Source: a virus
DNA: 23,235 nt
Strand: one strand, 5' to 3'
Virus record (IMG/VR): IMGVR_UViG_3300022187_000251
Span: 1-23,235 of that record
Both the position numbers and the translations under genes were made by a program. The notes under the pieces were generated by a model. The model saw only the letters and a program-made list of their open reading frames with translations. It made no database searches and had not been told where the DNA came from. Within the stretch, counting starts at the first letter, position 1. The number at the start of each line of letters is the position of its first letter. Positions 7,164 to 16,523 of the stretch are shown one piece after another.

Positions 7164-7355
7164 ATGTTAGATTGTAATAAATGTAATAAACCCAAGCATG
7201 CCTGCAAATGTTCTACTGCACATAAAGGTTGGTTCTGGGATCATGTAAATAAAACGTTTTATCGTTGGCATGATTTACAGCTTCTTATGCGAGAGCGAGA
7301 AATAAAGTTTGAAAGAAAAGGACTTCATCAACAAAATCCACAAGAAACTTCCTAA
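7164..7355 (+). CDS. Small Cys-rich (zinc-knuckle-like) protein
   Basis: I choose the ATG at 7164, giving 63 residues, because AGGA (7152-7155) lies 8 nt upstream. An ATG at 7155 or a TTG at 7104 in the same frame would place the SD or the hairpin inside the gene. The N-terminus has C4-x2-C7-x6-C14-x-C16, enough to bind one zinc ion. The remainder is aromatic and charged (GWFWDHVNKTFYRWHD). The 3' end overlaps the VRR-NUC-like gene by 47 nt. I do not recognise a named family. Binding to nucleic acid is plausible from the zinc-like motif and location, but is inference. Confidence 0.6.
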   Translation: MLDCNKCNKPKHACKCSTAHKGWFWDHVNKTFYRWHDLQLLMREREIKFERKGLHQQNPQETS

Positions 7356-7710
7356 AGAAATTTATAAGTGGAAAATCAATGATCCATATCATGGCGGTGT
7401 ACCCGACACTTTTTATTCAGGCCCAGCAGGGTTTGCTTTTTTTGAATACAAATATATACAACAACTTCCCAAACGTGGCACGTCAAAAATAAAAGTTGAT
7501 CTTTCGCCACAACAAAGAATCTGGTTACAAAGACAGTATGACTACAACATGCCTGTGTATTACATTTTAGGGGCCCCGGATCTTTGTATTGTAAGCCAAG
7601 ACTTCCAAAAAGAATTTTTTACTTTAGACGAGTTTCTCAAGTGTGCCTTGCCAATTGAGCAATTTATAGACAAAATAAGCAACATATGTTTACATAATAA
7701 GGAGGATTAA
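7309..7710 (+). CDS. VRR-NUC-like PD-(D/E)XK nuclease
   Basis: This 133-residue protein has the compact nuclease pattern GGVPDTF (D33), a short hydrophobic strand ending FFEYK (E46, K48) and LSPQQRIWL (Q68, Q69), as in VRR-NUC and related Holliday-junction-resolvase-like enzymes of phages. It likely cuts branched or structured DNA during replication or packaging. The only suitable start is TTG at 7309, inside the previous gene (47-nt overlap). The SD is weak, so translation may be coupled. The stop TAA directly abuts the ATG of the DUF3310 gene. The exact structure preferred by the enzyme cannot be read from sequence. Confidence 0.82.
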   Translation: MKEKDFINKIHKKLPKEIYKWKINDPYHGGVPDTFYSGPAGFAFFEYKYIQQLPKRGTSKIKVDLSPQQRIWLQRQYDYNMPVYYILGAPDLCIVSQDFQKEFFTLDEFLKCALPIEQFIDKISNICLHNKED

Positions 7711-7935
7711 ATGGAATTTGACCCAGTAAACAAACCTGCACACTATAACCAAGGTGGTATAGAGTGCATAAGTGCAATACAAGCAAGTATGACAGATGAT
7801 CAATTTGCTGCGTACTGTAAAGGTAATGTAATGAAATATCTTTGGCGGTATGAACAAAAAAACCAAGAACAGGACTTGCGAAAAGCAGAGTGGTATCTAC
7901 AGCGTCTAATAAAAGTTGTAGAAAAAAAACAATGA
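7711..7935 (+). CDS. DUF3310 (SaV-like) family protein
   Basis: This 74-residue protein matches the widespread phage DUF3310 pattern: PVNKPAHYNQGGIECI at 5-20, an FAAYCKGNVMKYLWRYEQK core (about 31-49) and DLRKAEWYLQRLI near the end. The family appears in many phage replication or nucleotide-metabolism modules; its biochemical role is not established. The start is well supported by AAGGAGG, 6 nt before the ATG. Its TGA stop overlaps the ATG of the next gene. Confidence 0.92.
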   Translation: MEFDPVNKPAHYNQGGIECISAIQASMTDDQFAAYCKGNVMKYLWRYEQKNQEQDLRKAEWYLQRLIKVVEKKQ

Positions 7936-8213
7936 CTGAAGAAACAGGGTTTACTAGATTAACAAAAGCAATTGGTTGTTGTGCAAGTCTTGCAGATTGT
8001 CCTTGTATTGGAGTTTGTTCTGTAACCCAATGGGGTGATGAACGTTGCAAAGGCTGTGGAAGAACCGCAACTGAGCTAAAAGAATGGGGAACTTACTCAA
8101 AACTTGAGAAAAAACTCATAAATTTACGAAATGCGGGTGAAAACTACAATATAAGACAACTAAAACAGCAAAACCGCGTTACACGCTCTGAGAAGCCCGT
8201 CACTGCATTTTAG
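7932..8213 (+). CDS. DUF1289-containing Cys-rich protein
   Basis: From the ATG at 7932 (overlapping the DUF3310 stop as ATGA) this is 93 residues. The DUF1289 signature is clear: PCIGVC (C25, C29) followed by CKGCGRT (C39, C42) and ELKEWG (W52). Extra cysteines C16, C17 and C23 precede it. DUF1289 proteins are small bacterial proteins with a conserved four-cysteine motif, presumed metal- or Fe-S-binding, without a proven function. The C-terminal 40 residues are basic and polar. This is the last + strand gene; the - strand operon ends 62 nt further on. Confidence 0.88.
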   Translation: MTEETGFTRLTKAIGCCASLADCPCIGVCSVTQWGDERCKGCGRTATELKEWGTYSKLEKKLINLRNAGENYNIRQLKQQNRVTRSEKPVTAF

Positions 8214-8275
8214 CTCTTACGATACTTATTACATTAACTACCTTAAGAAAATGCAACCAGCACGTTCTCACGAGG

Positions 8276-8485
8276 TCATTTTTTCTTAGATCTGATTTTT
8301 TTGAGGGTTTTTGCCAATCTGGCACGTTTTTTAGTAGTTTCTGAGTATTTACTACCTTTTTTTAATACTTTGTCTGCAAATTTAGAAACAGACATCTTTT
8401 CTTTCTTTGCTTGGGCACTAAAAGCCCCAGGTTTTTTAATAGCTTTTTGAATCCACTTTTTGTCTTTTTTCTTTTTGACTACCAT
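8276..8485 (-). CDS. Very basic small phage protein (69 residues)
   Basis: About 40% of residues are Lys or Arg. The recognisable element is KKWIQKAIKKPGAF (9-22), a motif I know from many small phage proteins of unknown role, followed by helical segments and a Lys-rich tail (KKIRSKKK). It is the final gene of the - strand unit, and its start overlaps the preceding stop by 7 nt. Binding to DNA or a place inside the capsid is plausible from charge alone. No enzymatic motif is present. Confidence 0.85.
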   Translation of the reverse strand: MVVKKKKDKKWIQKAIKKPGAFSAQAKKEKMSVSKFADKVLKKGSKYSETTKKRARLAKTLKKIRSKKK

Positions 8486-8775
8486 TTAACTTTGTCTGCC
8501 CAGTAAGCAGCTGACATTTTGCCTCTAGAAATGTTTCTTCTATGTCTAGCTTTAAAAGAAGCCCTTTTCTTTTTCATACGTTCTGATTCACCCGCTTTTG
8601 GTTTGCCAGCAGTCTTAGCTCCTTGCTCACCAAATCGAATTGTTTTAATTTTGCTGCCTTCTTTAGCTACTACAACATGTGATTTTTTTGGGTGACTGGG
8701 GGTACGTTTTGGTTTGTTATAACCACTAACGCCCGCTCTTGCTAATCTAGGATCTTTTTTTCTTTTTTCTGCCAT
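8479..8775 (-). CDS. Conserved phage protein, DUF6321-like
   Basis: This 98-residue basic protein starts with DPRLARAGVSGYNKPKRTP (8-26), continues with SHVVVAKEG and KTIRFGEQGAKTAGKPKAG, and ends in FKARHRRNISRGKMSAAYWA plus DKVKW. This string of motifs is a well-conserved phage family that I recall as DUF6321; the number should be verified. Its role is unknown, though the composition suggests nucleic-acid contact. It overlaps neighbours on both sides (7 nt with the downstream gene and 29 nt with the upstream one), so translation is probably coupled. Confidence 0.9.
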   Translation of the reverse strand: MAEKRKKDPRLARAGVSGYNKPKRTPSHPKKSHVVVAKEGSKIKTIRFGEQGAKTAGKPKAGESERMKKKRASFKARHRRNISRGKMSAAYWADKVKW

Positions 8776-9025
8776 AAGTACTTACTCTTGTTGGTTTACC
8801 GCCTACACCTTGAGCTTTAGCTCGTTTACGTTTTACCGCACTCTTTTTTTGTGCCTCTGTCATACGCGCAGCTTTAGCTTTAGGTACACATTTTGGATAT
8901 CCTTTACTTTTAGTAGAAGCTTTTTTTCTTCCACAAGGCGCATACCCGCCACCTTTTTTCTTTCTGCCTATATCAACCCACTCTTCATTAAACCATTTAG
9001 TGAGTCCACCCGTTGGTTTAGCCAC
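8747..9025 (-). CDS. Conserved basic phage/virus protein with CGRKK and YPKCVP motifs
   Basis: This 92-residue protein starts at GTG (9023-9025), whose G is shared with the upstream stop TAG. It has GGLTKWFNEEWVDIGRKKKG (6-25), then GGYAPCGRKKA and GYPKCVPKAKAARMT, then SAVKRKR. This pattern recurs in small proteins of phages and other viruses, all of unknown function. The two cysteines (CGRKK and KCVP) are the conserved pair. The last third is Lys/Arg-rich. No other start fits as well, because the neighbouring genes abut. Confidence 0.88.
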   Translation of the reverse strand: MAKPTGGLTKWFNEEWVDIGRKKKGGGYAPCGRKKASTKSKGYPKCVPKAKAARMTEAQKKSAVKRKRAKAQGVGGKPTRVSTYGRKKKKRS

Positions 9026-9204
9026 TATCTGTAGCCCCCACCTCTTTGTTTGTAAGTCTTAGTCAACCAACCTGAAGCATATGCTGAAGGCCAAACTTTA
9101 AACTTACGTTTAGCTTCTGACTTTACTCTAGCATATAAGCTTGGATTGGTGGGAGTTGCCCCCTTTCTACTACTAGTTTTCTTTTTTACTGGTTTTCTTG
9201 GCAT
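9025..9204 (-). CDS. 59-residue basic phage protein
   Basis: ATG at 9204 to TAG at 9025-9027 encodes MPRKPVKKKTSSRK at the N-terminus and then NPSLYARVKSEAKRKF, VWPSAYASGWL and TYKQRGGGYR. The motif P-S-A-Y-A-x-G-W-L ... Y-K-x-R-G-G-x-Y recurs in small basic proteins of marine phages, so this short frame is a real gene. It overlaps both neighbours by 1 nt, as TAATG upstream and as a TAG/GTG junction downstream. Leaving it out would create a false 178-bp gap in an otherwise gapless cassette. Confidence 0.85.
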   Translation of the reverse strand: MPRKPVKKKTSSRKGATPTNPSLYARVKSEAKRKFKVWPSAYASGWLTKTYKQRGGGYR

Positions 9205-9389
9205 TATTTGTTCTTTCTTGGGCGCCCTCTTTTCTTTGGCGCTTGTGGTTTATTGGGTGTTAATCCCCATTTAAAAAGTTTTGCATAACTTTTTTTCATT
9301 TTTTTAAAAAACTTTTCAATGTATTCCATATAAAAAACTCCTGCCATAATCAATAAGGCTATTATTATAGTATACCAAATGATGTTCAA
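9204..9389 (-). CDS. Membrane-anchored microprotein with C-terminal AT-hook
   Basis: In this 61-residue protein, residues 2-20 form one hydrophobic span (IIWYTIIIALLIMAGVFYM). An amphipathic Lys-rich linker follows (KFFKKMKKSYAKLFKW). The end, PKKRGRPRKNK, contains the GRP core flanked by basic residues that defines the AT-hook, a minor-groove binder of AT-rich DNA. With few charges before the span, the basic C-terminus would stay in the cytoplasm and could bind phage DNA at the membrane. The motifs are visible; the tethering role is inference. A lysis-related role is an alternative. It starts 4 nt inside the upstream gene. Confidence 0.75.
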   Translation of the reverse strand: MNIIWYTIIIALLIMAGVFYMEYIEKFFKKMKKSYAKLFKWGLTPNKPQAPKKRGRPRKNK

Positions 9390-9643
9390 CTTCTCTTCCT
9401 GCGGGATGTTTTTGTGCGTTTAAAAGATCTATTAGATTTTTTCGATTCCATTCTAATATTCTTTACTTTAGCATTTAAAGGATTGTTATCTTTATGTGCT
9501 ACATCTTTACCGTCGCCTTTTTTAGCTTTACCTAAGCTCACCATAATACGCCTAGACTTGTTGCGTCCAGCTCTGCGTTTTTTTTGTGTTTCTTTTGAAT
9601 GGTAGTTATCGTACTCTTTACGATAGTTTCTTTTAGTAGCCAC
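9386..9643 (-). CDS. Small basic protein with HNH-like signature
   Basis: This 85-residue protein (GTG start at 9643) has KEYDNYHSKETQKKRRAGRN at 9-28, then DGKDVAHKDNN with H50, NPLNAKVKNIR (N57, N62) and SKKSNRSFKR (N71). The order H ... N ... N-[IL]-R ... N resembles the core of phage HNH endonucleases (DHxDGNxLNN...NL), but the protein is tiny and has no zinc cysteines. It could be a minimal HNH nuclease or a derived DNA-binding protein that lost cutting activity. Closely similar small proteins are, to my knowledge, frequent in cyanophage-like genomes. It has 1-4 nt overlaps with neighbours. Confidence 0.82.
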   Translation of the reverse strand: MATKRNYRKEYDNYHSKETQKKRRAGRNKSRRIMVSLGKAKKGDGKDVAHKDNNPLNAKVKNIRMESKKSNRSFKRTKTSRRKRS

Positions 9644-9834
9644 TACTTACCAGTTTTATCCATGGCCTTTTTGTGTGCTTCGCGCATGGTGTCTCCCATG
9701 AGCATACGTCTTTTCATAAAAGCCATATGTTTTGCATTGTGGTGTTTGCTGTGTCTTTTTAAAGCAGCTTCTTGTCGTTTAGTAATACTTTTCTTTACAA
9801 CTTTTTGAAGGGGTCTAGTTTTAGTTTTTGCCAT
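9643..9834 (-). CDS. Conserved His/Lys-rich small phage protein
   Basis: This 63-residue protein carries LTKRQ-type helices: SITKRQEAALKRHSKHHNAK (16-35), HMAFMKRRMLMG and TMREAHKKAMDK. The RHSKHH...KHM...M pattern followed by T-x-x-E/Q-A-H-K-x-A is a recurrent small family in marine phages, of unknown function. It is strongly basic, entirely helical in appearance, and lacks cysteines. Its start lies 14 nt inside the upstream gene, and its stop shares one base with the GTG start downstream. Confidence 0.85.
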   Translation of the reverse strand: MAKTKTRPLQKVVKKSITKRQEAALKRHSKHHNAKHMAFMKRRMLMGDTMREAHKKAMDKTGK

Positions 9835-10045
9835 TTTTCTTTTTAATATAAGTTTTACCCTGTTCAGGCGATGGTGTTTTTGGGTTTACTCCCATCATTT
9901 TTCTAATAATCTTATCAGATATTCCCGCTGCATTTATTAATTTTGGTTCATAGGGTTTTAATTGATGATCAATAACATCATAAACTTCATCTACTGTTTT
10001 TACTTTTCCAGGTGTGCCCTTGCCCTTCGGAACTCGTGTACCCAT
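9821..10045 (-). CDS. Hypothetical small phage protein (74 residues)
   Basis: The N-terminus is Gly/Lys-rich (GTRVPKGKGTPGKV); a helix follows (TVDEVYDVIDHQL, 17-29), then KLINAAGISDKIIRKMMG and a Lys-rich end. I do not recognise a named family. The ATG at 10045 overlaps the upstream TAA as TAATG, with AGGAG ahead of it inside the upstream gene, which supports the start. It is less basic than its neighbours. No function is assigned. Confidence 0.78.
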   Translation of the reverse strand: MGTRVPKGKGTPGKVKTVDEVYDVIDHQLKPYEPKLINAAGISDKIIRKMMGVNPKTPSPEQGKTYIKKKNGKN

Positions 10046-10230
10046 TATTTTTTCTCCTCTTTCTTTTTATCCATGGGTATATTGTCAAAATACTCTGAAA
10101 CTTCTTCTGGACTCATAAGATCAAAACCTTCTGTTGAACTTTGATTAGGTGAATTATGCTCAATTTTAATGCTTTTTACCTTGCCTAAATGTTCATTAGA
10201 CTCTTCTTTGCCTTCTGGTTTATATCTCAT
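10045..10230 (-). CDS. Hypothetical acidic/basic small protein (61 residues)
   Basis: This is one of the few members of the cassette rich in acidic residues: FDLMSPEEVSEYFDNIPMD (37-55) sits between a charged N-terminus and a KKKEEKK tail. A short helix-turn segment and no cysteines are visible. The family is not recognised. The ATG at 10230 has no clear SD, but the gene starts just 3 nt after the upstream stop and overlaps the next start by 1 nt, so re-initiation is likely. Confidence 0.72.
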   Translation of the reverse strand: MRYKPEGKEESNEHLGKVKSIKIEHNSPNQSSTEGFDLMSPEEVSEYFDNIPMDKKKEEKK

Positions 10231-10233
10231 TAT

Positions 10234-10377
10234 TTATTTACCTTTTACGCCGCGGCCCATAAGAACATCAGCATAAGTTATTTTTCCGTCTTTATTTAAA
10301 TCAGGAAATTTCATTGTGCTTTTCTTTCTTTTATTTTTGCGAGCTTTTGCTGCTTGCATATATTTTTCATTAGCCAT
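10234..10377 (-). CDS. EF-hand-like microprotein (47 residues)
   Basis: ATG at 10377 to TAA at 10234 encodes a basic N-terminus (KARKNKRKKST), then FPDLNKDGKITYADVLMGRG. D26, N28, D30, T34 and D37 occupy positions 1, 3, 5, 9 and 12 of an EF-hand/dockerin calcium loop, with the invariant Gly after D30. Similar FPDLxxDGKVTxADVLxGRG segments are, as I recall, common in marine phage small proteins. An SD (GGAG, 10385-10388) lies 7 nt upstream. It overlaps the upstream gene by 8 nt. Calcium binding is inferred from the loop. Confidence 0.85.
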   Translation of the reverse strand: MANEKYMQAAKARKNKRKKSTMKFPDLNKDGKITYADVLMGRGVKGK

Positions 10378-10594
10378 TTGATTTCTCCGATGTTGATATT
10401 AAAAAATCAATAATCTTTATCTTATCATTAACCTCTGCTAGTTGTCCTATGAGCTTATCTAGTTCAATACTAAAAGCTGTATGCTCAGGAATACTAGTTG
10501 GGTTATTTAATAAAACCTCTAAATCTAAAGTTATTTGTGCACGTTGACCGTGCAGCACTTCCTTTTGTGTGCAAAGCACTCCTAGCTTATCCAT
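10370..10594 (-). CDS. Hypothetical helical small protein (74 residues)
   Basis: The protein is nearly all helix in appearance, with two leucine-rich segments (AQITLDLEVLLNN, 19-31, and AFSIELDKLIGQLAEVNDKI, 40-59) that could form a coiled-coil hairpin. A single cysteine (C8) sits near the start. Unlike its neighbours it is not strongly basic. The ATG at 10594 is 6 nt after the stop of the 32-codon gene upstream. No recognised family and no function are assigned. Confidence 0.75.
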   Translation of the reverse strand: MDKLGVLCTQKEVLHGQRAQITLDLEVLLNNPTSIPEHTAFSIELDKLIGQLAEVNDKIKIIDFLISTSEKSNG

Positions 10595-10600
10595 ACTTAC

Positions 10601-10699
10601 CTACTTCTTTTTCTTTTTGCCGTAAGACATTTTCATTGACTTAGGTTTTTTAGTCATAGATTTCTTTTTACTAGGTTTATTTTTGCCATAGTTATACAT
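10601..10699 (-). CDS. Lys-rich 32-residue microprotein
   Basis: ATG at 10699 to TAG at 10601 encodes 32 residues, 14 of them Lys, in the pattern MYNYGKNKPSKKK ... MKMSYGKKKKK. A perfect SD AAGGAG (10705-10710) lies 5 nt before the ATG; it sits at the very end of the upstream gene. Tiny M-x-Y-G-x-N/K-K-rich proteins of this kind recur in marine phages. The strong ribosome site and same-strand packing are why I call such a short frame a gene. Nucleic-acid or capsid association is a guess from charge. Confidence 0.72.
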   Translation of the reverse strand: MYNYGKNKPSKKKSMTKKPKSMKMSYGKKKKK

Positions 10700-10701
10700 A
10701 A

Positions 10702-10869
10702 TTACTCCTTATCTTTTCTCCAAAGATCAAAAAATGGTTTTTCAGATTCTTTTACCCCAGGAATAGTCCCATCATGATCCTTTACTGTTGAGTAAGAACA
10801 GCTGCAAAGATCTTTATATGTGTGGGGCTCTTGGTGGTCAAGAGGTTTGTTTATGCCTGTATTCTTCAT
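10702..10869 (-). CDS. Hypothetical 55-residue protein
   Basis: ATG at 10869 to TAA at 10702 gives MKNTGINKPLDHQEPHTYKD, then LCSCSYS and a polar C-terminus (PFFDLWRKDKE). The C-x-C pair is the only striking feature. An AAGGT ahead of the ATG is a modest SD. The frame fills what would otherwise be a roughly 190-bp gap, and it contains the SD of the next gene at its 3' end. The family is not recognised. Confidence 0.65.
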   Translation of the reverse strand: MKNTGINKPLDHQEPHTYKDLCSCSYSTVKDHDGTIPGVKESEKPFFDLWRKDKE

Positions 10870-10893: not shown

Positions 10894-11289
10894 TTAGTTG
10901 GCTACATCTGTTGGATCTGAGGTATCAGGCAGCGGCTCTGGGTTATCAGGAGTTCTGCCTTCTAATAATTGTGCCGCATAATGGTTCAGCATTATGTCTC
11001 TATCTTGATAAGCAAAGGCTGATTTAATCCACCCAATAATTTTTGCGTCTGTAAGCTCTTCAAGTGGTGTAAAGTTAATAGTTTTGCCTGTTAAAGGGCA
11101 AGTACCAGATGTTGTAAATTTACAAAATGTAAAAGCCCACGGAAAAGTAACGGAATTTAAAGAAGTGTCTGTGGCAGTAACATTAAAATGTACCTCAGTA
11201 ATTATGTCAGCCAAGTCTCCTTCTTCCTCTACTTTATATGATACAAGGTCATATGTGTAAGTATAATCTCGCATTACCCATTCACTCAT
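10894..11289 (-). CDS. Conserved phage protein, DUF7936-like
   Basis: In this 131-residue protein, the first 70 residues alternate as beta strands (YTYTYDLVSYKVEE, DIITEVHFNVTATDTS). FTPLEELTDAKIIGWIKSAF follows (about 73-92), and the end is acidic and Pro-rich. The combination of a beta-rich N-terminus with E-L-T-D-x-x-I-x-G-W-I-K is familiar from cyanophage and other marine phage proteins near tail genes (I recall DUF7936, to be verified). GGAGGA sits 5 nt before the ATG. It follows the gpJ-like fibre gene, so a minor virion role is likely but unproven. Confidence 0.82.
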   Translation of the reverse strand: MSEWVMRDYTYTYDLVSYKVEEEGDLADIITEVHFNVTATDTSLNSVTFPWAFTFCKFTTSGTCPLTGKTINFTPLEELTDAKIIGWIKSAFAYQDRDIMLNHYAAQLLEGRTPDNPEPLPDTSDPTDVAN

Positions 11290-11301
11290 TCTTGTCCTCC
11301 A

Positions 11302-13866
11302 TTAGACGCTATATTTATAAAATCTTGCTTCCGCTTGTAGATAGTCAGGCCCAGAATCCCCTTGTGCAAGAATAAATAAATTTATAGTGTTGCTTCCTGA
11401 ATATACAAAGGCTTGTGGAATATTGGCAGAATCAGAGCTTGAGAAAAATCTATCTACATGTCCCGGCAACTTATCTGTGGTGCCGCTGTTGTAAACTATT
11501 GCAGAGGTTTGTGCATCAAAATAAACTAGGCTTACTGTTTTTACATGGTTGGTGCTACCTACTAGTCTTACATAACCGTGATAAAACCCTGCCCCTGAAC
11601 CTACACTGCCAACTAATTGATATGAAAAAGTATTCGTAGCCCAAGGTCCTACTGTTGTTAATGCTACACCAGATGCAGGCAAAACTAAATTAGCTGTATT
11701 AATTTTGTCAGCAGTAATAGAGTTTGAATCAATTCTATCTGCACTAATAAAACCTGCGGTTATCTTATTGGCATTTAAGTTAGCTATCTTTGCGTCTTGA
11801 ATAGTTGCATCGGCTATTTTTGCGTTAGTTACAGCTAAATTTTGAATTTTTCCTTCTGTGACAGCTAAATTACCAATCTTTCCGTTTGTTACAGCAAGGT
11901 TTGCTATTTTACCTTCTTCTACAGCTAGGTTACCAATCTTGGCATTTGTTATGGCTCCGTTTTGGATCCGTGCATTATCAATAAAAACAGTGCCCCCACT
12001 TACAATAAAGGGGGCGGTACCAGAGGACCCATTCCAAATAGCAAACTTATCTGAGGTAAATTGAACAGCCGATCCTGTTCCTGCACCCGAGGCGTTTGCC
12101 TCTAGCACCATTCCAGACACAGAACCATTTGCCTCTACTTTTAGTACATAAGCGGCATTGGCGTCGTTCTGTAAGTTTGTCGTTGCTGTTTGTAATGTGG
12201 TAATGCTTGCACTGTTGCTTCCTGTGGTGCTTTGTAATGAGGTGATTGCACTAGCGTTTGAGCTAATGCTGTTACCCTGAGATGTCACTGTTGTTTGCAA
12301 AGAAGATATCGCACTAGCATTGCTAGTTATATCTCCCTCAGCTGTAGACAAATCACTTGTTAGGCTTGTTACAGAGCTGCTTAAAGAAGTGATATCACCA
12401 TCGTTTGCTGTGATCTGAGTTTGTAATCCAGAGATAGCGGAAGCCACAGTAGAGCTAGCACTATAACCCGTTAGGGTAGACTCTAATGCTGTTACATCAG
12501 AAGTGAGTGTCGTTATGTCACCATCATTTGCTGTTATCTGAGTCTGCAATCCTGATATAGCAGATGCTACTGTAGAGCTAGCACTATAACCCGTTAGGGT
12601 AGACTCTAATGCTGTTACATCAGAAGTAATAGTTGTGATGTCGCCATCATTAGATGTGATTTGGGTCTGCAACCCAGAAATAGCTGAGGCGTTAGTGGTT
12701 ATGTCACCCTGTGCTGTAGTAAGATCGCTTTGTAAGGTTGTAACATCTGAGGTTATGCTTGTGATATTTCCCTCAGCAGTTGTAACCCTCGTGCCTAGGC
12801 TTGATATAGCTGAAGCGTTAGTAGTGATATCGCTTTCCGCTGTGCTAAGGTCGCTTTGTAAATTTGTAATTGCGGTTGCCTGAGAGTTGTTCGTACTTGT
12901 TGCTGTAATAATGTCAGACTGAGCAGAAGCCATGGCTGAAGATAAATCACTTCCTGTAAAACTAGATGTTCCAACAAGCGTTACTAAACTAGAATCCCTT
13001 GATTTTACCCACCCGGTGTTACCAGCATTTCTTACATAAACTTGATTATTATCATCTGTATCAATCCAAACATCGCTGCCCTGCAAGCTTGAAGCATCGT
13101 CTCTTTGTGTTGGGGCAGAGGTAGATCGTATTACTCTTGTTGTTGCTGTTGATAAGTTGCTTACACTGGAATTAATTGAGGTTATGGCAGAATCTAAAGT
13201 GGTTAGGTCTGAAGCTATATCACTAAACTCGTCAGCTATTAATGTTTGATATCCCGGCAAACTAGACAGGTCTTCAGAAAGCTCCTCCATAACAGCCGCT
13301 ATATCTGGTAATGTTGTTGCTTCTACACCATTGGTATTATTAAAAGGGCCTTTTACATCAGATGTGCTTACATAGCGCACCCAATAATAAAAAGTTTCTG
13401 CATAGCCTACTTCATCGGTATAAATAAAAGCAGTTGTTGTAGCTCTTAGTGTAGCGCCAGCTAAATTATTATCTCTTGAGCGCCATATTTCTGTGTAAGC
13501 ATGATTACCGTACGGAGCACTAGCACTTGTACCATTCCAATCTAATATAATTTGAGTAAAAACCCCTTCTGCTGTTAAAGATACCGGAGCGGGGGGTATA
13601 GATAAATCTCCCGGTCCAGCATTAGGGGGACCAAAATCGATTGGTCCTAAGCCTGCGTTTGGATCAAAAGGATTATCTTTTAGTTTTACAGCAAGACCAC
13701 TATCAATTAGTTCTCGTAAAGTTACTGCTCTGTCTATTGGGTCGCCAAGTTGTCCTAATCTTATAGCAAGAGCTTCTTGCATGGCTTTTAAAGAACCCGC
13801 AAGTTCTTTGTCTACTTTAGCGGGGATTGGTTTTAGCCCCGGTAGTTTAGTACCAGTGGTAGCCAT
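11302..13866 (-). CDS. Central tail fibre/tip protein (gpJ C-terminus-like, FN3 plus repeats)
   Basis: This 854-residue structural protein has a Pro-rich N-terminus, then a fibronectin type III-like domain (about 92-185: PVSLTAEGVFTQIILDW ... YYWVRYVS). A long run of Asn/Thr/Ser heptad-like repeats (about 190-560) follows. Next is a segment like the lambda gpJ end (YVLKVEANGSVSGMVL ... FTSDKFAIWNG, about 570-615), a decapeptide-repeat rod (about 625-700: GKIGNLAVT units) and a beta-rich tip. The architecture fits a tail tip or central fibre that contacts the host. ATG and upstream TAA overlap as TAATG. The exact place in the tail is inferred. Confidence 0.85.
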   Translation of the reverse strand: MATTGTKLPGLKPIPAKVDKELAGSLKAMQEALAIRLGQLGDPIDRAVTLRELIDSGLAVKLKDNPFDPNAGLGPIDFGPPNAGPGDLSIPPAPVSLTAEGVFTQIILDWNGTSASAPYGNHAYTEIWRSRDNNLAGATLRATTTAFIYTDEVGYAETFYYWVRYVSTSDVKGPFNNTNGVEATTLPDIAAVMEELSEDLSSLPGYQTLIADEFSDIASDLTTLDSAITSINSSVSNLSTATTRVIRSTSAPTQRDDASSLQGSDVWIDTDDNNQVYVRNAGNTGWVKSRDSSLVTLVGTSSFTGSDLSSAMASAQSDIITATSTNNSQATAITNLQSDLSTAESDITTNASAISSLGTRVTTAEGNITSITSDVTTLQSDLTTAQGDITTNASAISGLQTQITSNDGDITTITSDVTALESTLTGYSASSTVASAISGLQTQITANDGDITTLTSDVTALESTLTGYSASSTVASAISGLQTQITANDGDITSLSSSVTSLTSDLSTAEGDITSNASAISSLQTTVTSQGNSISSNASAITSLQSTTGSNSASITTLQTATTNLQNDANAAYVLKVEANGSVSGMVLEANASGAGTGSAVQFTSDKFAIWNGSSGTAPFIVSGGTVFIDNARIQNGAITNAKIGNLAVEEGKIANLAVTNGKIGNLAVTEGKIQNLAVTNAKIADATIQDAKIANLNANKITAGFISADRIDSNSITADKINTANLVLPASGVALTTVGPWATNTFSYQLVGSVGSGAGFYHGYVRLVGSTNHVKTVSLVYFDAQTSAIVYNSGTTDKLPGHVDRFFSSSDSANIPQAFVYSGSNTINLFILAQGDSGPDYLQAEARFYKYSV
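11762..11985 (-). repeat. 30-bp periodic repeats coding a decapeptide rod
   Basis: Within the 854-residue fibre gene, a 30-bp period encodes successive (N/E)xKIxNLAVx units, interrupted by ATIQD and ANK variants. Copies differ by several bases each, so the repeat is old or under selection at protein level. The regular hydrophobic spacing suggests a stacked beta-helix-like rod; that fold is inference. Confidence 0.7.
12449..12627 (-). repeat. Perfect 56-bp direct repeat inside fibre gene
   Basis: Positions 12449-12504 and 12572-12627 are identical over 56 bp, 123 bp apart, which is exactly 41 codons. The flanking parts of the 123-bp unit also match, but with substitutions. The encoded unit contains SDVTALESTLTGYSASSTV. 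The in-frame spacing means that recombination between copies would add or remove one module without breaking the frame. Confidence 0.9.
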
Positions 13867-15845
13867 TAAATAGCCCTTAGTTCGTCTATAGACTCACCTA
13901 TACAAATCTCATTAACTGTTTGTGCTGAGGATACTTCTATAGCAAAAGTACGATGTACACTTGCTGGGAGTCTAACTATTGGTTCATATATAGTAGTAGC
14001 ACTAAAGCTAGGTGTTGTACCTGTAACTGAATAAACACTGCCAGATGTGCTGATGGTGGCGTCGTATATTACAGAGCCATCTCCATAAACTTTAAGTGTT
14101 ACAGGAAACGCTTCTGCATCTACCTTAGCAAAACCCATACTAGTTGGCTTTGCAGTTACAAACTCTTTCGATTTCCAAGTAAAAGTATCGTTGGTTGTGC
14201 TGCCTTGGAATTTCTTAATATCATCATCAATAATAATATAAAGTTCATTATCATCAGGATCAGTAAAGCCTCCTGGTACTTCATTAGACTCACTTAATTC
14301 TGTAAAAGTAGAATCGCCGCCTCTAGGATCAAAAATAAATCCAGCATAAGCAGAACCGGTATAATAAAAACCAACATACCGGCCTTCCCATAAAAAACCT
14401 TTTATGGTTGCAGGGTAGTAGCTTGAACCCCATTGTTTTGGGTTAATTAAACCTTCGGTTAAAATTTTAACTTCAGCTCCTGATACTGCGACTAACCCAT
14501 CTGGACCGGCGTACATAACATATTCACCCATGTCCACCATAGAGTTTTTACTTAGACAAGCTTGTGCTGCTTCAATACGTATAGCACTCATAGCTTGTGG
14601 ATCGGTGCCCGCAATTAAATAAGGCGTACCTTTTGTGCCAACAATTAAACCATTACTTGTAACAGCTATAGCTACAACTTCTTCTTCAAGAGTTATACGA
14701 TAGGCTGCAGGCCAAGCGTGAGGTAAGAAAGGTTCTGAAAAACAAACGCGTTTCCCAGTAAAACCAGCAAACACTCCATTAGGCATTGCAACTAACCCTT
14801 TCATAGGGCCGTCGGGGTATAAACTAGTATCTTCGTTTGGTGGGCCAATCCAATAAGTAGAAGGAATAATTTCAGCTAAATCAGAGTTTGCAGAGGTATC
14901 TGTAAAAGATGTAGTTGCTAAAGTAACTTCGCCAACAAACTGAAAAGCGGTTGTATTAGAGCCAGTATTAGATCTGTATATACGTTTTTTAAGAAGATTA
15001 GTGTTTGTTCGACCGGTGCCCGAGGTACTTGTTTCAAGGCCCGATATTGTCACACTTCTATTATCATCCGTGGTTATAACAGTTGATGCAGCAGAAGGAG
15101 GCCCCTCTTCTCCGTAGACACTAACAAATGTATACACATAAGAAGTACTAAAATCAATTAAAGCGCTTGATTCATCATTAAATGTTGCGCCATCGGTAAC
15201 AGAACTAGATGTACCTGACGAAGTAGTTGCACTATTTACTTCAATTGTTAGGGTTGTTGCACTAGGTACAGATACAATTTTATGATCTAAATTTATATCT
15301 GCAGCCGGTATACCATTCACATCACTAAAATTAGCTAGTTTTACATATTCTCCTACTGAAGCTCCATGAGCACTTGCTGTAGTAATCGTAAGTGTAGAAA
15401 CACCAAGCGACGCAGTTATCGTAGCATCGTAACTGGTTGGCGCTTCAAGGGCGACGGTCGGTGCTGCTGTAGGTGCGGGTATACCCAATCTGTAAAAATT
15501 ACTAGGAAAAGGTTCAGACCCAACAACAACATCACTTCTACCCATACGTGGGTAAGACTGTCCTGTCCAATAGACTGTATTATTTGTATCGCCAGCTATG
15601 GGACCTGGAACTACATCCACGTCCTCGTCAAACTGTAACCACCTTTCGGGTGAGTCTGTGTATTTAAATATACTGGTTCTACTTGAATTACTTAATACAA
15701 GTGTTTGTGAATCTTGAGTAATAGGGACAAGCCTGCCGCTGTCTAAGTTTACATCAATAGCTGTTTGAGCTAAGTTATCTTTTAATAATCTAGGTGAGAC
15801 TTGAGGAGCAAGTCCGCCAAACGTGATGAGTTTAAAATACGCCAT
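13866..15845 (-). CDS. Phage structural protein, probably tail-associated (659 residues)
   Basis: The start MAYFKLITFGGLAPQVSPRL and DNLAQTAIDVNLDSGRL (22-41) match a widespread phage structural family whose members I know only as virion or tail proteins. Residues about 135-220 form an inserted beta domain (TASAHGASVGEYVKLANFSD ... VNGIPAADINLDHKIV) like the FCCH-type modules found in phage proteins. The rest is beta-rich with WIGPPNED and a propeller-like composition. It lies 1 nt after the coiled-coil membrane gene and overlaps the gpJ-like gene by 1 nt, so these are one transcription unit. An exact role (tail tube, stopper or baseplate) cannot be told. Confidence 0.8.
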   Translation of the reverse strand: MAYFKLITFGGLAPQVSPRLLKDNLAQTAIDVNLDSGRLVPITQDSQTLVLSNSSRTSIFKYTDSPERWLQFDEDVDVVPGPIAGDTNNTVYWTGQSYPRMGRSDVVVGSEPFPSNFYRLGIPAPTAAPTVALEAPTSYDATITASLGVSTLTITTASAHGASVGEYVKLANFSDVNGIPAADINLDHKIVSVPSATTLTIEVNSATTSSGTSSSVTDGATFNDESSALIDFSTSYVYTFVSVYGEEGPPSAASTVITTDDNRSVTISGLETSTSGTGRTNTNLLKKRIYRSNTGSNTTAFQFVGEVTLATTSFTDTSANSDLAEIIPSTYWIGPPNEDTSLYPDGPMKGLVAMPNGVFAGFTGKRVCFSEPFLPHAWPAAYRITLEEEVVAIAVTSNGLIVGTKGTPYLIAGTDPQAMSAIRIEAAQACLSKNSMVDMGEYVMYAGPDGLVAVSGAEVKILTEGLINPKQWGSSYYPATIKGFLWEGRYVGFYYTGSAYAGFIFDPRGGDSTFTELSESNEVPGGFTDPDDNELYIIIDDDIKKFQGSTTNDTFTWKSKEFVTAKPTSMGFAKVDAEAFPVTLKVYGDGSVIYDATISTSGSVYSVTGTTPSFSATTIYEPIVRLPASVHRTFAIEVSSAQTVNEICIGESIDELRAI

Positions 15846-15846
15846 A

Positions 15847-16134
15847 TCATTTGAAAGTATACACGATTATGCTAACGATTCCTGCGAAGATAATCCAAAA
15901 CGCTCTTTCAAACATGCTAACCCCCTTTGTATTTACTATGGCTTTTTGTTCAACAATTTCTACTCTATCTTCTAAGCGGTCCATTCTTAAAATAAATCTG
16001 TCGTTTTGTTTTAACACCGTAGTTACCCGTTCCTCTATTCGAGCAATAGCTACTATTGCTTCAGAAAGTTTATCTATTTTACTATCTAGTTTATCTAACC
16101 TATTTGATACGTCGTCATTCACTTGTAACTCCAT
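15847..16134 (-). CDS. Coiled-coil protein with C-terminal membrane anchor (XhlA-like)
   Basis: In this 95-residue protein, residues 8-65 are heptad-like (SNRLDKLDSKIDKLSEAIV ... RMDRLEDRVEIVEQK), and residues 75-94 form one hydrophobic helix (FERAFWIIFAGIVSIIVYTF) ending in a Lys. This is the layout of XhlA/hemolysin-type phage lysis accessories. It directly follows the endolysin gene with a 16-nt overlap, which supports a lysis role. A small tail-membrane protein is an alternative. The ATG at 16134 lies inside the endolysin's 3' end. Confidence 0.75.
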   Translation of the reverse strand: MELQVNDDVSNRLDKLDSKIDKLSEAIVAIARIEERVTTVLKQNDRFILRMDRLEDRVEIVEQKAIVNTKGVSMFERAFWIIFAGIVSIIVYTFK

Positions 16135-16523
16135 ATATGTGGGCGCGGACGCATGGGTTCTTCTTCGAGCGTGTCGAGATGAATAAATCTGCTATCACCA
16201 TGTTGTTTTACACCTAGACCCGTTATACCGTGTTTAAGGGCTACCTCAATGAGTTTTAAGGCGTCCTTTCCTCGTATAAGTATGTCTACTGCCTTGCCCG
16301 ATGAATGAGCTCCTGGCTTAGATTTTTTAGCTTCTATAGGATGGGTCTTATCCCTATATCCACTACTGATAATAAAAGGTACCCCTACCTCTTCTCTTAT
16401 TGTATCAAGTTTACGCATGAAGTCATCATCCATTTCGCATAAACCTGTATGTTTACACTTTAATTCATCATGGGTAAAGTATTTCCAGTTATTTTTCTTC
16501 GTTCTCCACATGTTTAATTTCAT
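16119..16523 (-). CDS. Endolysin: M15-family zinc peptidase
   Basis: This 134-residue enzyme probably cleaves peptide cross-links of peptidoglycan. The M15 signature is complete: YFTHDELKC (15-23), SSGYRD (53-58), H73-S-S-G-x-A-x-D80 as two zinc ligands, RFIHLD with H115 as the third, and RPHIWSY at the end. It has no signal peptide or wall-binding domain, so release would depend on a holin, present upstream. The start at 16523 follows TTAGAAGAAG and overlaps the upstream gene by 35 nt. A second ATG at 16511 is equally usable and would remove four residues. Confidence 0.92.
   Translation of the reverse strand: MKLNMWRTKKNNWKYFTHDELKCKHTGLCEMDDDFMRKLDTIREEVGVPFIISSGYRDKTHPIEAKKSKPGAHSSGKAVDILIRGKDALKLIEVALKHGITGLGVKQHGDSRFIHLDTLEEEPMRPRPHIWSYK

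Follow-up and report, generated by a model that had tools for sequence, protein, structure and literature searches.

A cassette of thirteen small, mostly basic genes closing a phage late operon, part of which is probably a split form of modular virion or packaging proteins

The internal proteins of phage T4 are small, basic, packaged and dispensable accessories. Larger basic proteins of modular build are known in cyanomyoviruses as the T4-GC119 type (phrog_727-type), single chains of 337-529 amino acids whose genes lie near the terminase genes and which are labelled as virion or structural proteins in phages S-SCSM1 and S-E7. Modules of the Pfam family DUF5872 (PF19197) are found in these chains, and DUF5872 has also been reported in Chrysochromulina parva virus CpV-BQ1. 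These systems are compared here with a cassette of thirteen genes (g01-g13) on the minus strand of a 23,235-base virus fragment from an uncultured marine phage, IMG/VR record IMGVR_UViG_3300022187_000251, referred to as the window. Judging from sequence relationships, some of the thirteen genes probably encode, in split form, a modular accessory of the virion or of packaging that is related to the T4-GC119 type; the T4 internal proteins are a looser comparison, by size, charge and accessory character.

The cassette fills positions 8276-10869 with thirteen open reading frames (ORFs). They are listed below in transcription order, with isoelectric points (pI) for the proteins that are not basic and with the median pairwise ratio of non-synonymous to synonymous change against the window (dN/dS).

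g01, 10702-10869, minus strand: 55 amino acids, near-neutral (pI 6.3), no known family, homologues in 46 loci; dN/dS 0.01 (a small sample of 2 pairs).
g02, 10601-10699, minus strand: 32 amino acids, 44% lysine plus arginine, homologues in 26 loci; dN/dS 0.26 (a small sample of 3 pairs).
g03, 10370-10594, minus strand: 74 amino acids, acidic (pI 4.9), phrog_1811-like (E-value 9e-6); dN/dS 0.08.
g04, 10234-10377, minus strand: 47 amino acids, a basic head and one EF-hand-type loop, DLNKDGKITYAD; dN/dS 0.47.
g05, 10045-10230, minus strand: 61 amino acids, acidic (pI 5.3); dN/dS 0.47.
g06, 9821-10045, minus strand: 74 amino acids, basic; dN/dS 0.13.
g07, 9643-9834, minus strand: 63 amino acids, basic, phrog_31838-like (E-value 1e-6); dN/dS 0.33.
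g08, 9386-9643, minus strand: 85 amino acids, HNH_3-like basic protein, phrog_4590 (E-value 1.7e-13); dN/dS 0.09.
g09, 9204-9389, minus strand: 61 amino acids, a hydrophobic N-terminal stretch and a basic tail with an AT-hook-like KRGRPRK; dN/dS 0.24.
g10, 9025-9204, minus strand: 59 amino acids, match to the N-terminal half of DUF5872, with a WPSAYASGWLTKTYKQRGG motif; dN/dS 0.12.
g11, 8747-9025, minus strand: 92 amino acids, match to the C-terminal half of DUF5872, phrog_23735 (E-value 1.2e-23); dN/dS 0.12.
g12, 8479-8775, minus strand: 98 amino acids, phrog_7595, the most conserved and most widespread member; dN/dS 0.06.
g13, 8276-8485, minus strand: 69 amino acids, WIQKAIKKPGA family, phrog_20603 (E-value 1.8e-17), last gene of the operon; dN/dS 0.23.

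The link to virion proteins is carried by g10, g11 and g08. g10 scores 40.1 bits against DUF5872, above the cut-off of 27.5, and covers profile positions 1-38 of 116, whereas g11 covers positions 52-102 at 22.0 bits, below the cut-off. Since g10 matches the first third of the profile and g11 the remainder, albeit below the cut-off, these matches indicate that DUF5872 amounts to a fusion of g10 and g11. In the window the two halves are not in one polypeptide but in separate ORFs that overlap by 1 nucleotide, and the pair is kept as neighbours in 36 places among distinct contig clusters. A constructed consensus of the g10 motif gave two weak matches only when used as a query. In T4-GC119-type cyanomyovirus proteins (carriers examined: S-BM3, S-E7, RN05-S and S-SCSM1; copies include S-SCSM1_29, S-E7 AYR02000 and S-BM3 SBM3_00185), the g11 module, the g10 module and a C-terminal DUF6321 stand in a single chain with basic regions, whereas the cassette has separate genes and Pfam DUF6321 matches none of its thirteen proteins. 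S-SCSM1_29 matches g11 at 28.1 bits and g10 at 22.2 bits, compared with maxima of 8.6 and 7.6 among 501 shuffled or reversed copies, and its GenBank product label is "virion protein". Mass spectrometry of S-SCSM1 particles purified in caesium chloride found 45 proteins, ORF91 being named among them (PMC9602691). Since ORF91 was detected and bears the same "virion protein" tag in the S-SCSM1 record, the tag can be read as mass-spectrometry evidence, which supports a virion role. The S-E7 record names its own copy a T4-like structural protein. At four of the loci fetched for this analysis (L107, L344, L345, L346; L numbers denote such loci), the T4-GC119 proteins encoded near the terminase genes are mosaics built from DUF5872 and DUF6321 modules.

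A second link comes from g08, whose module forms the C-terminus of a 1076-amino-acid cytidyltransferase-type ORF (L326:1-3231, cut at the locus start); the next ORF (L326:3224-4474) contains DUF5872, DUF6321 and g10 modules. Proteins of the cytidyltransferase or NMNAT kind were found in the virions of four cyanophages, S-SM1, S-SZBM1, S-SCSM1 and S-CREM2 (PMC3037559, PMC9146016, PMC9602691, PMC10665884). A virion role is therefore favoured both because the g10 and g11 modules occur together in an S-SCSM1 chain that bears the virion-protein label and because g08 is fused elsewhere to a kind of protein seen in cyanophage virions. The window's g08, taken to be a degenerate HNH module, reaches 19.5 bits against HNH_3 (PF13392), below the cut-off of 24.8, and its relatives in L326 (26.9 bits) and L310 (28.5 bits) exceed it. 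Among 48 aligned sequences, H50 and N71 are invariant and N62 is present in 47; at residue 49, 23 sequences have Ala (that of the window and those of 22 relatives), 16 have His and 9 have Asp. Residue 49, next to the conserved His, is presumably the metal-binding position of related nucleases; catalysis by g08 may be lost in the window because Ala precedes that His. PDB sequence searches with cassette proteins gave nothing significant, the match of g08 to the HNH homing endonuclease 1u3e being weak (E-value 0.26). A g08 homologue lies between the scaffold and capsid genes of HTVC011P, and the family occurs in at least 588 places in IMG/VR.

Several lines of evidence show that the thirteen ORFs are real genes under selection rather than ORFs that an A-rich strand would yield by chance. 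The same cassette is present in single copy in a near-identical 44.8 kb contig (G001), the order g01-g13 is complete in the closest contigs (L082, L083 and L086), and a truncated contig (L084) has g01-g12 in order. Family profile searches, which covered about 340 fetched loci and the window, found every family to recur, from 25 loci for g06 to 161 for g12; homologues of each of the thirteen genes are present in diverged contigs, and the alignments show conserved motifs. Median dN/dS is below 1 in all thirteen genes (0.01-0.47, highest in g04 and g05). The original prediction, made from the sequence of the window, had named random order between close relatives or unconserved reading frames as grounds against it, and had proposed gene order and the per-gene ratio of non-synonymous to synonymous change as checks. 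Frames and close-relative order proved to be conserved, the ratio was below 1 throughout, and order is reshuffled in distant phages. No match was found in an Rfam scan, or in NCBIfam for the nine cassette proteins scanned.

The layout and composition largely agree with that prediction as well. Thirteen genes of 32-98 codons follow one another on the minus strand with gaps of at most 6 nucleotides, and overlaps are present as stated; they range from 1 to 29 nucleotides, however, the longest (g11/g12) exceeding the 14 nucleotides given as the maximum. From g01 to g13 the intergenic distances are +2, +6, -8, +3, -1, -14, -1, -4, -1, -1, -29 and -7 nucleotides. A pI of at least 9.9 is found in 10 of the 13 proteins, g01, g03 and g05 being the acidic or near-neutral exceptions. 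Lysine plus arginine makes up at least 25% of nine proteins, with g02 and g13 (41%) highest, which is in line with the expected minimum of eight rich in these residues and one near 40%; the nearby genes outside the cassette that were checked have 5-16%.

In distant phages the families persist while their order is reshuffled, g10-g11 being the stable pair. Several families are phage-only and reappear, in reshuffled combinations, in aquatic phages that are not related to one another. The arrangements seen include g12-g10-g11, g12-g13-g10-g11, g08-g12-g10-g11 and g04-g06-g10-g11. Counted by distinct contig cluster, g10-g11 adjacency occurs in 9 of 70 g12-fetched, 8 of 55 g13-fetched and 4 of 29 g08-fetched loci, and at least one other cassette family is present in 26 of 70, 14 of 55 and 14 of 29 clusters, respectively. 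The association of the families is thus real but loose, since co-occurrence covers only part of the contig clusters. In three phages, KBS-S-2A, C72C1 and CRP-2 (a cultured Roseobacter phage with g12, g10 and g11), homologues of g12 have genes for minor head, coat, portal or terminase proteins in their vicinity; in KBS-S-2A g12 stands between the minor head and coat protein genes, and in CRP-2 and C72C1 g10 or g12 is near terminase and portal genes. Contigs of up to 203 kb (L119-L126, L140, L141, L155) have g12-g13-g10-g11, or g13 alone.

Taken together, the cassette would be an accessory section that closes the late operon. Within it g10, g11, probably g08 and, less surely, g12 and g13 would supply, as separate and exchangeable pieces, the kind of modular basic protein that is made as a longer chain in other marine phages. 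The basic surfaces of these late-made proteins would bind DNA or the packaging/portal region, and the proteins would end in or on the particle, perhaps delivered with the genome; for this phage we infer virion location, DNA binding, a place inside the particle and delivery with the genome. That late-made accessory proteins, at least g10 and g11 and probably g08, bind DNA or the packaging/portal region and enter the particle has, in our estimate, an even chance of being correct. The remaining g01, g03 and g05, together with g04 (EF-loop) and g09 (hydrophobic stretch and AT-hook-like tail), may act as partners or may be passengers with no connection to the others. A single machine of all thirteen proteins is not supported, and the joint action originally proposed does not agree with three of them not being basic and with distant phages having other subsets in another order.

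Several points weigh against a virion role. No proteomic study was found for this phage or for another phage with the split genes, and S-SCSM1_29 (ORF29) is unnamed in the main text of PMC9602691, so its status rests on the record label. Detecting a protein in virions cannot show which of its modules matters. S-CREM2 gp137 speaks for a virion role in that it is encoded between terminase genes, has a DUF6321-like end and was detected in virions by 4 peptides, but it is without detectable g10 or g11 modules. The relation of g12 to DUF6321 is not significant by profile-profile alignment. Many distant carriers hold just one or two cassette families, and in contigs of 95-203 kb g12-g13-g10-g11 lies near dNMP kinase, TauD-like and glycosyltransferase genes and not near head genes. 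On the favourable side, terminase, portal and major head protein are the commonest named families among the 136 nearest large neighbours of g12 (terminase large subunit 13, major head protein 9, head-tail adaptor 7, portal 8; each count is for a single family), although the tally has no matched control.

Some of the same evidence can be read differently. The proteins could be late intracellular packaging accessories, some of them small and DNA-binding and one an HNH module that nicks or binds DNA, which aid the terminase and procapsid but do not remain in the particle. This would account for the terminase, portal and scaffold genes that neighbour cassette relatives and for T4-GC119-type genes near terminase genes. 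HNH proteins can assist terminases, and g08 is HNH_3-like with H50 and N71 invariant. This explanation is nevertheless rather unlikely, as virion labels or detection in virions are on record for T4-GC119-type proteins, and as the residue beside the conserved His, which is His or Asp in about half of the g08 relatives, is Ala in the window. Late host modulation or anti-defence, with basic proteins that bind the host nucleoid, RNA or membranes and the cassette as an accessory-gene hot spot, is unlikely: strong purifying selection on g12, g08, g10 and g11 is unusual for fast-evolving takeover genes, the fused homologues are linked to the virion, and the cassette stands at the end of the late strand and leaves no room for promoters between its genes, although the reshuffling is accessory-like, large-genome contigs place the set near glycosyltransferases and a dioxygenase, and g09 combines a hydrophobic stretch with an AT-hook-like tail. 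The early host takeover offered in the original prediction fits less well, given the late strand and the lack of any promoter-sized gap inside the cassette.

The lysine plus arginine content of up to 44% and the pI of at least 9.9 in 10 of the 13 proteins could also suggest protamine-like condensation, with many copies of basic proteins neutralising the packaged DNA. This is very unlikely, since one full set of thirteen proteins has a summed net charge of +168 and 45 kb of DNA would require about 535 copies of each, and since the families are marked by conserved motifs of their own and by predicted folds, and are not plain runs of Lys/Arg. The suggestion of co-packaged DNA-binding proteins therefore does not extend to bulk DNA packing, whereas it agrees with the late position, with relatives often lying by head or packaging genes and with the g10 and g11 modules of a virion-labelled protein.

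The cassette comes last in a single long late operon that also encodes portal, head, tail and lysis proteins. On the minus strand of G001, genes for the portal (phrog_156) and major head protein (phrog_334) are followed by virion, tail-fibre and endolysin genes and then by the cassette, which places it at the end of the structural operon as had been proposed. A DNA-metabolism operon on the plus strand faces the cassette and ends 63 nucleotides from g13; it comprises DNA polymerase-type, primase-helicase-type and exonuclease-type genes (the larger ones named by reading the sequence, with no search) and DUF3310. The flanking genes are as follows.

10894-16523, minus strand: upstream late genes for an M15 endolysin, a phrog_511 internal-virion-type protein, an 854-amino-acid repeat protein and a DUF7936 protein.
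7309-8213, plus strand: end of the convergent DNA-metabolism operon, with a 133-amino-acid phrog_2165/phrog_35651-like protein, DUF3310 and DUF1289.

The 854-amino-acid protein (11302-13866, minus strand) has coiled-coil-like repeats, with a 123-base tandem repeat at 12389-12684. Promoter and terminator matches were no more frequent than in shuffles, and no clear terminator was found at the 8213-8276 junction. In Cobavirus/Siovirus phages (ICBM2, CRP-5 and SIO1), a g12 homologue is likewise among the small genes closing the late operon, with a convergent metabolism operon beyond, although these phages have fewer cassette families and other small genes. ICBM2 shares this arrangement but has a bidirectional terminator before a convergent SaV-like nucleotide kinase.

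g12 matches phrog_7595 over the full profile (E-value 6.1e-42, positions 3-96 of 96) and is found in at least 598 IMG/VR places and 46 phage records. Its 60 matches in sequenced prokaryote genomes are probably stray phage contigs, since nearly all are in contigs titled as metagenome bins. g13 occurs in at least 324 IMG/VR places, and neither it nor one g13 relative matched named phages by tblastn. The AlphaFold2 models of g12 (predicted local distance difference test, pLDDT, 81) and of g13 (four-helix, pLDDT 81) are of fair confidence and matched nothing in the PDB at E <= 0.001. Treating g12 as a divergent DUF6321 was rejected for now (alignment of 12 columns only, probability 1.6%), and its match to phrog_220, "minor head protein and DNA pilot" (E-value 0.0011), was too weak for use. 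In HTVC011P a 41-amino-acid basic protein just before the capsid gene (L106:5568-5693) resembles by eye the N-terminus of a 195-amino-acid ORF with a C-terminal g13 module (L149:2599-3186; L149 matches phrog_25774). In L140, L141 and L155, g13 directly follows an ORF of 988-990 amino acids, that of L140 being without a PHROG or Pfam match.

Among the other members, g04 meets the 12-residue Ca2+ loop pattern DLNKDGKITYAD, which is present in 18 of 33 distinct homologues, and scores below the Pfam cut-offs for Dockerin_1 (20.5 vs 22.9) and EF-hand_5 (13.7 vs 25.9). The EF-loop motif is also found within a 352-amino-acid ORF of L064. An EF-hand-like loop that recalls g04, DKNKDGKISGEDF, is encoded next to g10-g11 in HTVC023P (L100:6269-6634). 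g06 has 14 relatives in viral contigs, frequently right before g10-g11, and a g07 relative follows the lysozyme gene of pelagiphage HTVC111P. RGRP or KGRP is present in 15 of 27 distinct g09 homologues, and the hydrophobic stretch is absent from some homologous ORFs; g09 is a possible membrane-anchored DNA-binding microprotein. In favour of a virion role for proteins of this kind, small basic proteins are represented among the virion-labelled ones of S-SCSM1 (L350) by SSCSM1_93 (69 amino acids, pI 9.9, 91626-91835) and SSCSM1_97 (61 amino acids, pI 10.2, 93121-93306).

The families themselves are catalogued but functionless, and fused virion-labelled relatives are already known: g12, g13, g11 and g08 match phrog_7595, phrog_20603, phrog_23735 and phrog_4590 by sequence, functionless families that are here joined in one thirteen-gene set. 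In the literature searched, no description was found of the tight split set or of DUF5872, phrog_7595, phrog_20603 and phrog_4590 as one exchangeable pool, and no mention of marine phages or cyanophages was found in a paper on polyvalent proteins (PMC5512222). A tentative and rather doubtful extension is that DUF5872 halves, phrog_7595, phrog_20603, the HNH-like phrog_4590, the EF-loop and the AT-hook-like/hydrophobic proteins form an exchangeable toolkit of basic microproteins, co-packaged with the genome in podo-, sipho- and myoviruses of aquatic bacteria, split or fused, and including the DUF5872 of algal giant viruses. Lys/Arg-rich microproteins yield few usable tryptic peptides and are hence easily missed. 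g12, g08 and g13 represent abundant aquatic-virus families without a function, and linking the split genes to a virion-labelled fused homologue gives these families of "hypothetical proteins" a testable hypothesis, which asks whether small basic proteins form a modular set in the particles of tailed phages.

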